From NCBI GenBank assembly GCA_029821755.1, contig JALGSV010000018.1, positions 1-62,624 of the forward strand: a DNA stretch of 62,624 nucleotides. The letters are read 5' to 3'. This DNA is from Candidatus Zipacnadum vermilionense. Its GTDB lineage: Bacteria; Armatimonadota; Zipacnadia; Zipacnadales; Zipacnadaceae. Made by a program: the position numbers and the translations under genes. The notes beneath the pieces were generated by a model. It saw nothing but the letters and a program-made list of their open reading frames with translations, was not told the DNA's origin and searched no databases. Of this stretch, positions 8,541 through 53,156 are shown one piece after another; the stretch's first letter is position 1, and each line of letters opens with the position of its first letter.

Positions 8541-9446
8541 TCAGTCGTGGGTGGAGCAGGAGCCGCAATCTGCGGGAGGCTCGATGCCCCAGCCCTTCAG
8601 CATCTCTGCGATCGCGGCGTGGACCTCCTCCGGTGTCTTGCCCGCTTGCTCCAGCTCCTGGTGCTCGGCCATGACTTGCTGGCGCTGCTCCGGGGTCAAC
8701 TGGGCGAAAAAGCCGCCACCTTGGCCTAGCCCGCCACCTTTGCCTAGGCCGCCGCCGCCGCGAGCGGGAGGCTCGATGCCCCAGCCCTTCAGCATCTCTA
8801 TGATCGCGGCGTGGCTCTCCTGCGGTGTCTTGCCCGCTTGCCTCAGCTCCTCGCGCTCGGCCATGACCTGCTGGCGCTGCTCCGGGGTCAACTGGGCGAA
8901 GAAGCCGCCACCTTGGCCTATCCCGCCACCTTGGCCTATCCCGCCACCTTGGCCTAGCCCACCACCTTGGCCTAGCCCGCCGCCGTGAGCGGGAGGCTCG
9001 ATGCCCCAGCCCTTCAGCATCTCCATGATCGCGGCGTGGATCTCCTGCGGTGTCTTGCCCGCCTGACTCAACTCCTGGTGCTTAGCCATCACCTGCTGGC
9101 GCTGCTCCGGGGTCAGCATCTTCATCCAGTTGGGGTCTGCCGCATGCCCAGGGCCTCCGGCCTGACCGGGATCCACGCCCCAGACCTTAAACATGGTGAA
9201 GACTGCCTCCCGGATCTGATCGGGGGTCGCCTCCGCCGCCTTCATCTCCCCCAGCTTGGCGCGCAGTTGCGCCCGCTGCTCGGGGGTGAGTAACTTCATC
9301 CAGTTGGCGGCCCTAACGGGCTCCGTGGCGCAGTGGTCAGCCGGCGCGCCCGGGGCCGGTCCCGCCGCGCCCTCCGCCCAGATCAGGGCAGTAGCGCCTA
9401 GTGCCATTGTGGTAACTAACCCGATTGTGAGCCACTTGTGTTTCAT
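8541..9446 (-). CDS. exported LTPEQR tandem-repeat protein
   Basis: The product has 301 residues. Residues 1-25 form a signal peptide. Four repeats of about 45 residues follow, each LTPEQRQQVMAxxxEL...GKTPxEx(H)AAIxEMLKGWGI(E/D)P. The first is the most divergent (MFKVWGVDP). Three are joined by Gly-rich linkers built of GGGLGQ/GGGIGQ units. The C-terminus CGSCSTHD could bind metal. The LTPEQ motif recalls the LTxxQ motif of periplasmic CpxP/Spy chaperones, but the repeat array is not that fold and I do not recognise a family. The last three repeats are nearly identical, which points to recent amplification. The ATG at 9444-9446 has a weak GAAGG site. It is monocistronic. Confidence 0.85.
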   Translation of the reverse strand: MKHKWLTIGLVTTMALGATALIWAEGAAGPAPGAPADHCATEPVRAANWMKLLTPEQRAQLRAKLGEMKAAEATPDQIREAVFTMFKVWGVDPGQAGGPGHAADPNWMKMLTPEQRQQVMAKHQELSQAGKTPQEIHAAIMEMLKGWGIEPPAHGGGLGQGGGLGQGGGIGQGGGIGQGGGFFAQLTPEQRQQVMAEREELRQAGKTPQESHAAIIEMLKGWGIEPPARGGGGLGKGGGLGQGGGFFAQLTPEQRQQVMAEHQELEQAGKTPEEVHAAIAEMLKGWGIEPPADCGSCSTHD

Positions 9447-22294: not shown

Positions 22295-25200
22295 ATGTTC
22301 ATTCATCTTCATGTTCATTCCAACTTTTCTTTCTACGACGGGGCGGCTCCCCTGACCGACCTGGTGGAGGCGACGGCGCACCTGGAGATGCCGGCCCTGG
22401 CCGTCACCGACCACAACAGCCTCGCCGGCGCCGTCCGCTTCTACCAGGCTGCCCGTAAGGCGGGGATCAAGCCGATCATCGGGGTGGAGTTTGACTGCGA
22501 ATCAGTTATGGGGAGCGAATCTGTAGAGGCGGCGCCTGCGCCGCCCGCCGTTTCGGCCTTCCCCACCCGACTCCTCCTCCTCGCCCTCGACAATACCGGC
22601 TACTCCCATCTCTGCCGCCTGGTGACCTGTGCCCATCTCGGCGAGGCCCGCTCCGCCGGTCCCTTCGCCCCGCAGTACCACGAGGTGGACCGCAAGCACC
22701 CTCTCCTGCACCAGGAGCATCTGCGCGAGTATGCCTCCCACCTGCTGGCCCTCTCCCCCGCCGGCGCCGGCGAGATCGCCACCCTCCTCCAGGCCGGCGA
22801 CTACCGCACCGCCGCCGCGGTGGCCCGCTACTACGCCGACCTCTTCGGCCCCGGCAACTTCTACCTGGAACTTCAGCACCATCTGAATCAGCCCGAGGGC
22901 GTCCGCCGTCCTAATCCCCCCTCTCCTGCAAGGAGCGGGGGGCCGGGGGGTGAGGTTCGCCACCGCCTTGCTCGCCTCGCCCACAACCTCTCCCTACCCC
23001 TCGTCGCCTCCAACGACGTCCACTACGTCACGCCCGACCATGCGCCGCTGCAGGATGCGCTGTTCTGCCTGGGGCAGGGGATCTCCGTCCGCGACGCCCA
23101 TCCGGGGCGCAAGCCCAATGCCGAGTACTACCTCAAATCCCCGGCCCAGATGGGCAAGCTCTTCGCTGACTATCCTGAGGCTCTCGCCGCCACCGAGGAG
23201 ATCGCCGGGCGCTGCTCCTGGGAGTTGGACCTGGACACCATCCACCTCCCCCGCTTCGACGCCGCCTCAGCCGACGCTTTCAGCGGTGACCCGGATTCCC
23301 CCGCCGACCGCGCCGCCTTTCTGGAGAGGCTCTGCCGCCAAGCCTTGCCGCGCAAATATGGTCTCGACTCCTATCCCCCCTCTCCTGCAAGGAGAGGGGG
23401 GCAGGGGGGTGAGGCGTCCCTGCGCGCCCCTGCCGAGCGCCAGTTGGAGCACGAGCTGGCCGTCATCAACCAGCGCGGCCTGGCCGACTACTTCCTGATC
23501 GTCTGGGACCTGGTCCGTTTCGCCGAGTCCCGCGGCATTCGCCACAGCGGCCGCGGCTCCGCCGCCGACTCGATTGTCTGCCACCTGCTGGATATCACCC
23601 AGCCCGAACCGCTCGCCAACGACCTGCTCTTCGAGCGTTTCCTCAACCCTGAACGCCGCGACCTGCCCGACATTGATCTCGACTTCGACACCCGCCGCCG
23701 CAACGAGGTGGTGGCCTACGTCTACCACAAGTACGGCCCCGAGCATGTCGCCGCCGTCGGCACCGTCAACACCTTCCGCGCTCGCGCGGCGGTGCGCGAG
23801 TTGGGCAAGGTCCTGGGCCTGAGCGAAGGCCAGATCAGCCGCGTGGCCTGCAACTTCGCCTACGTGGACCTGCACCAACTCCCCGCCATGCTGGAGGCGC
23901 TCCCCGAGGCGCGCGGCGTGGCGGGCGATCTGGCCTACGAGCAGACCCTCCTGCGTCTGTGCGAGCAGGTGGGCGGCTACCCCCGCCATATCGCCGTCCA
24001 CGTCGGCGGGCTAATCATCAGCGAGCGCCCCCTAACCGACCTCGTTCCCCTGCAACTGGCCAACAAGGGCATCGTTGTCGCCCAGTACGACAAGGACGAC
24101 GTCGAGGCCCTGGGTCTACTGAAGATGGACCTCCTGGGCCTGCGCATCCACACGGCGATTGAGCACTGCCTGGGGTTGATAAACCGTCCTGTAGGGCGCG
24201 GGCTCGTACCGCGCCCCTCCCGCCACCGTTTCGCCGGTCGAAGCCGGAGATCGATTCGGTATCACCGCCGGCGTTTCTTCCTCCGTAGCCCAAAGCGGGC
24301 GGCGCAGGCGCCGCCCCTACAAAAACTCCCCCTCCCCTGCCAAGGGCGTCAGCGCCCAGGGAGGGGGCAGGGGGTGGGGCTCCGAGCGGCGGGGCACGTA
24401 GGCCCCGTCCTACATGAAATACCCCTCGACGACCCCGCCGCCTATGCCTTGATCCGCTCCACCCACACCCTCGGTCTCTTCCAACTGGAGAGCCCCGGTC
24501 AGCGCAACCTGCAGGGGAGGCTGCTGGCTGAGAAGTTCGAGGACATCATCGCCGGCATCTCTCTCTTTCGCCCCGGGCCGGTGCAGGCGGACATGATCAC
24601 GCCTTTCATCGCCCGCCGTCGGGGCCAGGAGCCGGTCACCTACCTACACCCCGTCCTCGAGCCCATCCTGGAGCGCACTTACGGCGTGATGATCTACCAG
24701 GAGCAGGTGATGCGCGTCGCCGCAGCCATCGGCGGCTTCACCCTCGGGCAGGCTGACCGCCTGCGTAAGGCCATGAACTTCGACTCCCCCACCGAGGCGA
24801 TGCAGCGCCTGCACGACAGCTTTATGGAGGGCGCCCGCCGTCAGGGGATTGACGAGGCCGTAGCCGAGCAGATCTTCTCCCAGGTCGCTGCCTTCGCGGC
24901 ATTCGGCTTCAACAAGGCCCACGCGGCCAGCTTCGCCCGCATCTCCTACGAAAGCGCCTATCTCAAGGCCCACTACCCGGCCGAATTCTTCGCCGGCCTG
25001 CTCACCGCCCAGCCCATGGGCTTCTACCCCCCGCGCACCCTCGCCGAGGAGGCCAAGCGCCTGGGGATTGCGATGCTTCCGCCGTGCGTAAATCGGAGCG
25101 AGGGGGATTATACGGTGGAGAGGACCCCTCCCGGTACGACGGGCGTCTCGCCCGTCGTCGGCGGGAGGGACGGGCGAGACGCCCGTCCTACCGGCCTTCG

Positions 25201-25972
25201 CACCGGCCTCCGTTTCCTCCGGGATATGTCCGGCTCTGCCCTGGAGCAGATCCTCGCCGCTCGCGCCGCCGGGGGGCCCTTTCTGTCCCTGCGCGACTTC
25301 CTCACCCGCGCCAACCCACCTTATCCCATCGTGGAGAACCTCATCCTGGCCCGCGCCTTTGACTGGACCGGCCGGAGCATCCCGCAACTACTCGGCCTGC
25401 TCGCCTCCTTGCACCAGCGCACCGGGAAGGCCGCCCTCACCCTCGACCTGGAGGAACCGCAACTGGAGATGTCCGCGCGGGTCTTCGGCGAGGAGATCAC
25501 GCCCTACCAGCGCCTGCAACTCGACTTGCACCTGCTGGGTCTGAGCACTGAGCTAAACCCCTTCGCGCCGTGGGTGGAGATGTCCGCGCGGCAGGGGGTC
25601 ATCCCCACGGCGCGGCTGCTGGAGTATCCGGACAAGGCGAAGGTGAAGGTAGCGGGAATCGTGGTGGCGCGCGCCCGCCCGCCGGTGCGCAGTGGCCGGA
25701 CGACGCTGTTCATCTGCCTGGAGGACCACACCGGCCTCGTGGACATCACCATCTTCTCGGAGGCCTACCAGCGCTACGGGGAATTCCTGTACACCGCGCC
25801 GGTGCTGCTGGCCGAGGGAGAGCTGACCCGCCGGGGTGAGCGCGACGTAGCGGTAACGGTCAAGCGGGTCCAACCCCTCCCCATGCCCCAGGCGAGAAAG
25901 AAGGCACCGGTCCCCGCCGACGAACTAGCGGAGATCTACCGCCAGACAGGGCCGGGGAGCTATGGGGGGTGA
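22295..25972 (+). CDS. dnaE: DnaE-family DNA polymerase III alpha subunit with in-frame repeat insertions
   Basis: A C-family replicative-type polymerase of 1225 residues. The PHP domain at the N-terminus keeps metal-site residues (HLHVHS at 4-9, TDHN at 38-41, Glu65, DVHY near 245), so proofreading by PHP is possible. The palm shows PDIDLDFD near 458 and KMDLLGLR near 610, supplying the three catalytic Asp. HhH-type and OB-fold regions follow (GIVVARARPPVRSGRTTLF near 1120). About 170 residues are low-complexity segments that correspond exactly to intergenic repeats: near 70-90, 205-222, 360-376, 628-708 and 940-968. Without them the length is about 1055, normal for the family. There is no clear Shine-Dalgarno before ATG 22295. 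Context suggests an SOS mutagenic polymerase (DnaE2/ImuC role), but the window lacks imuA and imuB. Confidence 0.93.
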   Translation: MFIHLHVHSNFSFYDGAAPLTDLVEATAHLEMPALAVTDHNSLAGAVRFYQAARKAGIKPIIGVEFDCESVMGSESVEAAPAPPAVSAFPTRLLLLALDNTGYSHLCRLVTCAHLGEARSAGPFAPQYHEVDRKHPLLHQEHLREYASHLLALSPAGAGEIATLLQAGDYRTAAAVARYYADLFGPGNFYLELQHHLNQPEGVRRPNPPSPARSGGPGGEVRHRLARLAHNLSLPLVASNDVHYVTPDHAPLQDALFCLGQGISVRDAHPGRKPNAEYYLKSPAQMGKLFADYPEALAATEEIAGRCSWELDLDTIHLPRFDAASADAFSGDPDSPADRAAFLERLCRQALPRKYGLDSYPPSPARRGGQGGEASLRAPAERQLEHELAVINQRGLADYFLIVWDLVRFAESRGIRHSGRGSAADSIVCHLLDITQPEPLANDLLFERFLNPERRDLPDIDLDFDTRRRNEVVAYVYHKYGPEHVAAVGTVNTFRARAAVRELGKVLGLSEGQISRVACNFAYVDLHQLPAMLEALPEARGVAGDLAYEQTLLRLCEQVGGYPRHIAVHVGGLIISERPLTDLVPLQLANKGIVVAQYDKDDVEALGLLKMDLLGLRIHTAIEHCLGLINRPVGRGLVPRPSRHRFAGRSRRSIRYHRRRFFLRSPKRAAQAPPLQKLPLPCQGRQRPGRGQGVGLRAAGHVGPVLHEIPLDDPAAYALIRSTHTLGLFQLESPGQRNLQGRLLAEKFEDIIAGISLFRPGPVQADMITPFIARRRGQEPVTYLHPVLEPILERTYGVMIYQEQVMRVAAAIGGFTLGQADRLRKAMNFDSPTEAMQRLHDSFMEGARRQGIDEAVAEQIFSQVAAFAAFGFNKAHAASFARISYESAYLKAHYPAEFFAGLLTAQPMGFYPPRTLAEEAKRLGIAMLPPCVNRSEGDYTVERTPPGTTGVSPVVGGRDGRDARPTGLRTGLRFLRDMSGSALEQILAARAAGGPFLSLRDFLTRANPPYPIVENLILARAFDWTGRSIPQLLGLLASLHQRTGKAALTLDLEEPQLEMSARVFGEEITPYQRLQLDLHLLGLSTELNPFAPWVEMSARQGVIPTARLLEYPDKAKVKVAGIVVARARPPVRSGRTTLFICLEDHTGLVDITIFSEAYQRYGEFLYTAPVLLAEGELTRRGERDVAVTVKRVQPLPMPQARKKAPVPADELAEIYRQTGPGSYGG
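22523..22549. repeat. family H repeat inside dnaE (PHP domain loop)
   Basis: GTAGAGGCGGCGCCTGCGCC.. is read in frame as VEAAPAPPA, between the strand ending IIGVEFDC and RLLLLALDN of the PHP domain. Confidence 0.8.
22912..22955. repeat. family F repeat inside dnaE, first copy
   Basis: CCCCCCTCTCCTGCAAGGAG.. followed by GGTGAGG is translated NPPSPARSGGPGGEV. It is the complement-orientation of the intergenic F repeats (for example 18340-18379). Confidence 0.88.
23375..23416. repeat. family F repeat inside dnaE, second copy
   Basis: The same repeat, orientation and reading frame as the previous copy, translated YPPSPARRGGQGGEA. The matching frame of two copies about 155 codons apart is strong evidence that they arrived as mobile or copied repeats. 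Confidence 0.88.
24187..24420. repeat. composite C, H and F repeats inside dnaE
   Basis: A block of roughly 80 codons contains family C (24191-24217), family H (24295-24320) and an F-like palindrome (24328-24382), all in frame. It separates EHCLGLINR from HEIPLDDPAAYALI, which should be near neighbours in DnaE, just after the third catalytic Asp region. Confidence 0.85.
25133..25192. repeat. family B palindrome inside dnaE
   Basis: GGTACGACGGGCGTCTCGCC and its inverted copy ending at 25192 are translated as TTGVSPVVGGRDGRDARPTG. The intergenic counterpart is at 53053-53136. Confidence 0.88.
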
Positions 25973-26057: not shown

Positions 26058-26999
26058 CTACCCCACCACCGCCTCCTCCCGTTCCCTCCAGTACCGCACC
26101 GACTGCTGCACCAGTTCCTCCAGGGCCTCCGGATCGGGATTGCCGTACATCGCCGGGTAGGGATCGCCGCCGGGGCCGAGGGGTTCGAAGGTCACGTACC
26201 TGCTCTCGGTGTTGTAGCCGATCACGTACAGCGCGCGGATGATCGTGTCTATGTCCAGCGACCCTAGGCCCTGCGCGCAGCGGTTGCTGTCGGCCATGTG
26301 CAGGTTGGTCAGGCACTCCCCCGCCGCCACCAGCGCCTCCCCGATGTGGCTCTCCTCCACCTGCATGTGGTAGACATCGCCGTTGATATACTGCACGCCG
26401 GGATGGTCCACCGCCGCGATGTACGCCTGCGCGTCGGCGATGGTGTGAACCAGGCTCACCTCCGCGGAGCGGATCGGCTCGATCGCCGCCCGCACCCCGT
26501 GCTGGACGAAGAGGTCCGCCACCAGCTTGAGCGTCTGGACCGAGCGGTGCAACTCCATGCCGTCGTAAGGGGCAGGGCGGCCGACCGCGCCGGGGACGAC
26601 CAGTATGTACCCCGCGCCGACCGCCTCGGCGAAGGGGACCTCGCGTTTGAGGTAGTCAATCGCCGCCTGCTGGTGCACCGGATGGTTGCTGGACAGGTCG
26701 TTGTCGGCGCTGAACATGCCGCAGATACCCGCCACCCGCAGGCCGTGGTCGCCCAGGATACGCAGGGCCTCGTCCACGTCGTAGCCCAGGTCCGGCCCGT
26801 AGTGATTGCCGTGCAACTCAATGAACTCCAGCCCGGCCCGCTCCAGCCGCGCCGCCGACGCCTCCAGCGTCTCCACCCCGAAGCCCCAGTTGGACCAGGC
26901 CAGATTCAGCCGCCGGTCCAGCCGGCCCGGAATGGCGCGCAGGGCCTCGAACTGGTCAAGGATCTGGTCGTTCTTAACCTGGAAGTTCTGCATGGACAT
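26058..26999 (-). CDS. sugar phosphate isomerase/epimerase-like TIM-barrel protein
   Basis: The product has 313 residues of the AP-endonuclease-2/xylose-isomerase-like TIM-barrel family. Typical segments are LEFIELHGNHYGPD, HGLRVAGICGMFS, AIEPIRSAEVSLVHTI and NLHMADSNR, whose Glu, His and Asp side chains would form the divalent metal site. The family isomerises or epimerises sugars or inositols. The ATG at 26997-26999 has GGGAGG about 6 nt upstream, so the long upstream extension is a repeat shadow. It is the last gene of a minus-strand cluster with a glucuronate-isomerase-like gene and two unknown genes. The stop is convergent with dnaE across an 85-nt gap containing a small hairpin. Confidence 0.88.
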   Translation of the reverse strand: MSMQNFQVKNDQILDQFEALRAIPGRLDRRLNLAWSNWGFGVETLEASAARLERAGLEFIELHGNHYGPDLGYDVDEALRILGDHGLRVAGICGMFSADNDLSSNHPVHQQAAIDYLKREVPFAEAVGAGYILVVPGAVGRPAPYDGMELHRSVQTLKLVADLFVQHGVRAAIEPIRSAEVSLVHTIADAQAYIAAVDHPGVQYINGDVYHMQVEESHIGEALVAAGECLTNLHMADSNRCAQGLGSLDIDTIIRALYVIGYNTESRYVTFEPLGPGGDPYPAMYGNPDPEALEELVQQSVRYWREREEAVVG

Positions 27000-27014
27000 G
27001 GGATACCTCCCTTT

Positions 27015-27265
27015 GGGTAGCGCAGGCCTCCAAGCCTGCACCGGCGGCGCGGGCGTCTCGCCGGTGCGCCGTGTGGCGCGGGCTTTCCTGCCCGCGCTCT
27101 CCTCCGCGTAGGGGCGAGTGTTCCGCGGGGCCGTATCCCGCGGAACACCCGCCCGCGGGAGCGGCATACCTACCGGACGCCGGCCTCCGCCACCTCAGTG
27201 CCTCGCTCGCGACAGCCGCGGGCGGATGTTGCGTCTCAGAAGCCGCAATATCCGCCCCTACCCGA
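27015..27265. repeat. cluster of partial A and B plus D and E palindromes
   Basis: The 294-nt gap 27000-27293 is almost all repeat. It holds a GCAGGCCTCCAAGCCTGC palindrome (27018-27035), a family B-like arm near 27047-27066, a family A half-copy (27071-27100), family D (27110-27155) and family E (27220-27263). The D-E order matches 18384-18541. I see no promoter or RNA gene here. Confidence 0.75.
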
Positions 27266-28634: not shown

Positions 28635-28667
28635 AGGTATCTCCTTCTGTTCTGGAAGCGCCCCCTT

Positions 28668-28700
28668 GTAGGGCGCGAGCTCATGCCGCGCCCTACAGGA
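28668..28700. repeat. family C palindrome, copy 3
   Basis: GTAGGGCGCGAGCTCATGCC.. forms an inverted repeat in the short gap between two cluster genes. It resembles 13278-13303 and 24191-24217. Confidence 0.75.
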
Positions 28701-53038: not shown

Positions 53039-53052
53039 GCGGTCCCTCCCCT

Positions 53053-53136
53053 GGTACGACGGGCGTCTCGCCCGTCGAGGCTCCAGCAGACCAGAAGGTA
53101 AGCGGCATGCGCGACGGGCGAGACGCCCGTCGTACC
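53053..53136. repeat. family B palindrome (full copy)
   Basis: GGTACGACGGGCGTCTCGCC at 53053 onward and its inverted copy ending at 53136, with a spacer of about 35 nt. It lies between recJ and the YjbQ gene. The same repeat occurs in frame within dnaE. Confidence 0.9.
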
Positions 53137-53156
53137 GGGAGCGCCCGCCCCCACGG

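Follow-up and report, generated by a model that had tools for sequence, protein, structure and literature searches.

We report that a DNA polymerase gene of Candidatus Zipacnadum vermilionense carries, in frame, several of the small palindromic repeats that are dispersed in its own genome. The gene lies in the window, i.e. the whole stretch of 62,624 nucleotides that was analysed (GenBank assembly GCA_029821755.1, contig JALGSV010000018.1, positions 1 to 62,624), and its frame is open over all 1225 codons, as stated in the first-pass annotation of this DNA. Specifically, the predicted protein has the Pfam domains PHP, DNA_pol3_alpha, DNA_pol3_finger, HHH_6 and OB, and the catalytic aspartates are kept (PDID at residues 458-461 and KMD at 610-612), with the active-site residues D459, D461 and D612 being invariant in the alignment with orthologues.

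To score repeats, the gene was compared with 1.08 Mb of its own genome and bases with at least two matches outside the gene were counted. This gave seven repeat blocks (22516-22554, 22914-22965, 23368-23427, 24189-24221, 24295-24320, 24326-24414 and 25126-25194), which coincide with the five segments that the first-pass annotation had described as near-copies of the genome's repeats. Segment 4 is composite with at least four units, and judged by these matches the gene appears to hold about eight units from at least four families (Table 1). Family F is represented by up to 31 copies outside the gene, and the two arms of unit 5 differ in that the left is GTAC-tagged and the right GTAG-tagged. 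The annotation was also right in that several families are present in frame in one polymerase gene and in the peptides it gave for two F copies (units 2 and 3). Its description of the repeats as strictly intergenic elsewhere in the window holds for 9 of 11 copies; the two exceptions are a copy touching a stop codon and a copy close to a doubtful start.

Table 1. Position of the polymerase gene, the repeat units within it and two intergenic comparison copies in the window (REP, repetitive extragenic palindrome; aa, amino acids)
Feature	Position	Strand	Remarks
DnaE2-like accessory DNA polymerase III alpha gene (probable)	22295..25972	+	1225 aa; Pfam domains, catalytic Asp, fold
Unit 1, family H REP, GTAG(A)GGCGGCGCCTGCGCCGCCCGCCGTT, read VEAAPAPPAV	22516..22554	+	9 matches including itself; variable-length loop
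Unit 2, family F palindrome, read NPPSPARSGGPGGEV	22914..22955	+	+16 aa in a loop of 11 aa in 12 relatives
Unit 3, family F palindrome, read YPPSPARRGGQGGEA	23368..23414	+	+16-18 aa; not in G001, G002
Unit 4a, family C GTAG REP (CTGTAGGGCGCGGGCTCGTACCGCGCCCC), read VGRGLVPRP	24189..24221	+	14 matches; hairpin z -3.6
Unit 4b, family H REP, reverse orientation, CTAC end	24295..24320	-	repeat matching
Unit 4c, long F variant palindrome	24326..24380	+	14 matches; hairpin z -3.2
Unit 4d, another GTAG REP family (D), reverse, TGTAGGACGGGGCC...	24381..24414	-	5 matches
Unit 5, family B inverted REP dimer, read TPPGTTGVSPVVGGRDGRDARPTG	25126..25194	.	60 matches genome-wide; hairpin z -6.5
Intergenic family C REP, comparison copy	28667..28693	+	
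Intergenic family B inverted pair, comparison copy	53044..53141	.	

Genome statistics were based on 1.85 Mb of the 4.39 Mb genome (37 merged stretches), in which 1354 genes were predicted using a simple codon-usage gene finder. Roughly 30% of the repeat bases fall in predicted genes (≈70% outside), while 86% of the sequence is coding, and the repeats are thus not strictly intergenic genome-wide. Among the 1089 genes of at least 600 nt, 35 have interior repeat blocks when depth is counted from intergenic partners only; 31 of these have one block, two have two, one has three and the polymerase gene has six. Under uniform placement the probability of six blocks in this gene is 8.6e-10, or about 1e-6 when corrected for 1089 genes, and on these block-count statistics together with the repeat matching we rejected chance similarity between the segments and the repeats. 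A first gene scan had also picked up some interior matches to sequence other than mobile repeats (a conserved AGKHV.CEKP oxidoreductase motif and low-complexity sequence), which were gone once intergenic-partner depth was used. Decorated genes with a Pfam identity include a double-length UvrA, Pol III delta', MutS2, QueA, phosphoglucomutase, NuoF and sugar enzymes. Replication and repair genes with the repeat well inside make up 4 of the 35; this count, taken among the decorated genes only, agrees with a report from 2013 (PMC3733652). The double-length UvrA is a 1856-aa open reading frame (ORF; G000:C40:7430-13000) with two UvrA interaction-domain matches and a repeat insert at residues 1222-1259.

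The insertions were compared with two same-genus controls, a full-length orthologue with 71% identity (G002, L114) and a partial one with 77% identity (G001, L005), and with further relatives; a search for related loci across the genome contigs gave mostly distant DnaE genes, of which only L050 was used further. Loop 2 is 27 aa here, against 11 aa in twelve relatives including G002, loop 3 is 31 aa here and 13-15 aa in all relatives but L012 (27 aa), and loop 4, to which units 4a-4d jointly add ≈67 aa, is 79 aa here and 11-12 aa in all relatives but G001. Loop 5 is 28 aa here, 6-12 aa in nine relatives and 18-79 aa in five with extra sequence. At these four sites the units lie wholly inside the ORF, in frame, and are absent from shorter homologues, as for intragenic REPs. 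The view that each segment is a clean insertion in a loop therefore stands for four sites but not for site 1, where loop length between fixed anchors varies anyway (23 aa here, 30 aa in G002 and 10-37 aa across relatives). The length added by the repeats was measured to be about 120 aa, fewer than the ≈170 residues first proposed. Moreover, the GC content at codon positions 1/2/3 is 0.78/0.70/0.69 in the inserts and 0.71/0.44/0.87 in the backbone, and the backbone codon signature is absent from the inserts. Given that this is a draft assembly of 115 contigs and that repeats are classic misassembly points, repeat-mediated misjoins could have put intergenic repeats into the gene. The frame is, however, kept at all five sites with the flanks in register with the orthologues, and three separately assembled genomes (G001, G026 and G040) have their own repeats in the orthologue, and we consider an artefact very improbable.

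With respect to the reading frame, five of six frames per unit are open for families H and F, four for C and D (the unit 4d family) and all six for B. The common F form would give a TGA in the frame in which units 2 and 3 are read, but both are of the rarer six-G form, which moves that TGA out of frame. Among the copies found by a strict scan, the six-G length class makes up 3 of the 10 in genes and 1 of the 23 between genes; this fits the survival of frame-compatible copies, and units 2 and 3 may also be derived from one another.

The protein structure was predicted with AlphaFold from 15 aligned locus-derived sequences (mean predicted local distance difference test, pLDDT, score 72.7). Values of pLDDT below 50 were obtained for the five inserts (residues 75-88, 198-217, 358-373, 632-704 and 946-964) and also in six shorter stretches elsewhere in the model. 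The best match among solved DnaE structures was 7pu7 (template modelling score 0.75/0.83). In the model the inserts are predicted to form disordered Pro/Arg/Gly-rich loops while the DnaE fold is otherwise kept.

Pairwise codon models of the backbone gave omega values of 0.038 (G001) and 0.025 (G002), with dS above 4 and saturated, and Tajima relative-rate tests against four outgroups were not significant. These values suggest that the polymerase backbone is under purifying selection and gives no sign of decay; relaxed selection, which the first-pass annotation had offered as an alternative, was rejected on omega and the relative-rate tests. If the gene were decaying, a redundant polymerase under relaxed selection would be collecting repeats on its way to becoming a pseudogene. 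Six repeat blocks in a single gene are in keeping with this, as is the lack of a match at the threshold used in the family's other genera (several of these genomes being incomplete), such that the gene may be dispensable in the long term. Nevertheless, the codons are all open, the catalytic aspartates are kept and the order-level orthologues are conserved (52-57% overall), which together with the omega values and rate tests makes decay unlikely.

Which polymerase the gene encodes bears on why repeats might be tolerated. A second DnaE is present in the genome at C69:80628-84254 and scores above both DnaE1 cut-offs (PRK06826, 1317 bits; PRK05673, 1306 bits). The window protein is below the DnaE1 equivalog cut-off (861 versus 1002 bits), and with an intact DnaE1 paralogue on another contig we rejected it as the replicative DnaE1; the first-pass call of a dnaE polymerase thus applies to a polymerase, but not to the replicative one. 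As for DnaE2 error-prone polymerases, the gene is the second DnaE of its genome and has nothing C-terminal beyond the OB fold. Unlike these, it scores 772 bits, under the NCBIfam PRK05672 error-prone cut-off of 939 bits (860 for an insert-free orthologue), and the orthologues scanned are also under both the DnaE1 and the error-prone cut-offs. On one side the neighbours scanned are FHA, RodA, penicillin-binding-protein and kinase genes, and the other side has a TIM-barrel gene; no imuA/imuB-like gene was found among them, an unlinked cassette and LexA boxes not having been searched for. On balance the gene is probably DnaE2-like, encoding an accessory polymerase with a repair or translesion role. 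As to the TIM-barrel gene (window 26058-27167), its predicted N terminus runs through repeat-like sequence (RRTGETPAPP), and the later MSMQNF is probably the true start.

The orthologues of relatives have also been entered by repeats. In G001 other palindromes occupy loops 4 and 5, matching 26 and 14 further places in that genome. Loop 5 of the G026 orthologue holds repeats of G026 itself, with 40 further matches, and a GTAG REP with 21 further matches lies in yet another loop of the G040 orthologue. Hence different elements entered the same permissive loops across lineages, or ancestral ones were replaced. Among 15 DnaE2-like sequences ten have extra runs of at least 8 aa, whereas 14 DnaE1 sequences from the same genomes have a single such run (9 aa near one N terminus). 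Separately, a Ca. Zipacnadia homologue of the polymerase has a long unrelated insert of ≈80 aa (L050:5913-6164), located in a different loop.

That different repeats recur at the same loops among relatives, and that replication and repair genes (DnaE2-like, UvrA, Pol III delta', MutS2) recur among the decorated genes, also in PMC3733652, might mean that the inserts are retained for a function, e.g. as basic, proline-rich loops or mRNA hairpins that tune a mutagenic polymerase. The insert sequences vary between relatives, however, G002 and most of the order lack them, the insert positions are consistent with loop tolerance, and many unrelated genes are decorated too; we find a retained function improbable. 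It is likewise doubtful that loops in the accessory polymerase and in further repair proteins serve REPs as recurrent landing places that selection retains. If they did, mobile palindromes would keep remodelling an enzyme that sets the mutation rate.

A GTAG tag is present directly before the palindrome in units 1, 4a, 4b, 4d and the right arm of unit 5, and with hairpins of 20-50 nt that are dispersed, multicopy and mainly intergenic these correspond to GTAG REPs. Such a tag beside a hairpin marks REPs associated with RAYT (REP-associated tyrosine transposase) genes (PMC8266576, PMC3733652), and CT is the cleavage dinucleotide of characterised TnpA-REP enzymes (PMC8266576). Of 20 family C copies 9 have CT before GTAG, the commonest dinucleotide at this position, versus 76 of 1165 GTAGGG sites overall. 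Five Y1_Tnp matches are present in the genome. One of them is a RAYT-like ORF at the beginning of C22 (L183:92-790; G000:C22:1-4000), which has family H on both sides, at 92-121 and 691-753, with the H core in tandem (39-nt period) upstream of the ORF start. In this arrangement the ORF and family H make up a compact REPtron, and family H occurs twice in the polymerase gene. Target-site duplications are not expected for single-strand insertion of the RAYT type.

Other observations concern repeats and transposase genes elsewhere. A second RAYT-like gene (L184:1584-2300; G000:C71:181000-185000) has inverted pairs of the abundant repeat CGTGGGGCGGGCTTTCTAGCCCGCCC on both sides (≈70 matches in the 1.08 Mb sample), and a third Y1_Tnp ORF (G000:C22:1919-2564, L183) lies between inverted copies of the GTAG repeat GGTAGCACAGGCTTCCAAGCCTGTG. 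Family F consists of a palindrome followed by GGGGGTGAGG, and its architecture CCCTCTCC..GGAGAGGG..GGGTGAGG occurs in 34-54 strict copies in G000, G016 and G026, and in single copies in genomes reached via Undibacterium, Alcanivorax and a Chloroflexi metagenome-assembled genome; a reversed control pattern gave none. Finally, window positions 8572-8981 hold a tandem duplication of 192 bp (1.9 copies, 91% match) with nested 18-bp repeats.

Taken together, the data very probably reflect an accessory DnaE2-like polymerase that has repeatedly been struck by the genome's own non-autonomous palindromes, which are tolerated in loops. Several of these, the GTAG-tagged REPs, would most likely have been moved as single-stranded hairpins by RAYT (TnpA-REP) transposases. 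Insertions in surface loops that kept the frame and added no stop would be the survivors, helped by the fact that GC-rich hairpins leave most frames open. We infer that the inserts are translated as disordered Pro/Arg/Gly-rich loops and that the polymerase core still works, and an accessory enzyme that is non-essential or little expressed might tolerate them where the essential DnaE1 does not. Several points weigh against this interpretation. Family F (units 2, 3 and 4c) is without a GTAG tag and was not filed as a GTAG REP, most family B copies have GTAC as their tag, and for families F, B and C we found no cognate transposase gene. The term accessory rests on the separate DnaE1 locus, the absent C-terminal domain and the paralogue contrast, the protein having missed both the DnaE2 and the DnaE1 cut-offs. 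Moreover, with dS saturated and the insertions younger than the comparison, the omega values would also be compatible with relaxed selection confined to the time since the insertions.

The first-pass annotation drew a parallel to the Rickettsia palindromic elements (RPE), which is a fair analogy in that these are palindromes in frame in genes, including DnaE of R. conorii (PMC3733652). They are, however, CGTC-tagged or longer, while the units here are GTAG- or GTAC-tagged or untagged, a distinction from RPE-1 drawn on the tags; the GTAG tag, which the annotation had missed, makes RAYT-linked REPs the closer match. With REPs and bacterial interspersed mosaic elements (BIMEs) and their RAYT genes the present repeats share the tag, the 20-50 nt hairpin, inverted dimers, a mostly intergenic location and a family (H) flanking a RAYT gene, but F is untagged, B mostly GTAC-tagged, and copies here lie within coding sequence. 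The setting (a polymerase, high GC, several families) was thought to be novel, but GTAG and CGTC REPs were described in frame within genes by Di Nocera et al. in 2013, occurring singly, as dimers or in clusters that encode up to 82 residues, many of them in replication and repair genes such as DnaE2, uvrA and recB, and GTAG repeats were reported in Proteobacteria, Cyanobacteria, Chloroflexi and the Planctomycetes-Verrucomicrobia-Chlamydiae group (PMC3733652). Consequently, the present case, with tagged palindromes in frame in ORFs that include DnaE2-like and uvrA genes, is a dense example of a known phenomenon. It differs from those described in belonging to Armatimonadota (Ca. Zipacnadia being the nearest named relative found), in that a single gene holds about eight units from several families, and in that a sister genome has different insertions at the same loops. 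We found no earlier description of such insertions in this lineage, and what is new is the unit density, the fact that insertions recur at these loops in relatives, and the DnaE1 contrast, for which no earlier description was found either. One gene thus shows how small mobile palindromes turn into protein sequence. REP accumulation in replication and repair genes was noted in 2013 and, as far as we found, has not been explained in the literature since; these genomes, in which the accessory polymerase is decorated and the replicative one untouched, provide a natural test of tolerance versus selection for REPs in such genes.

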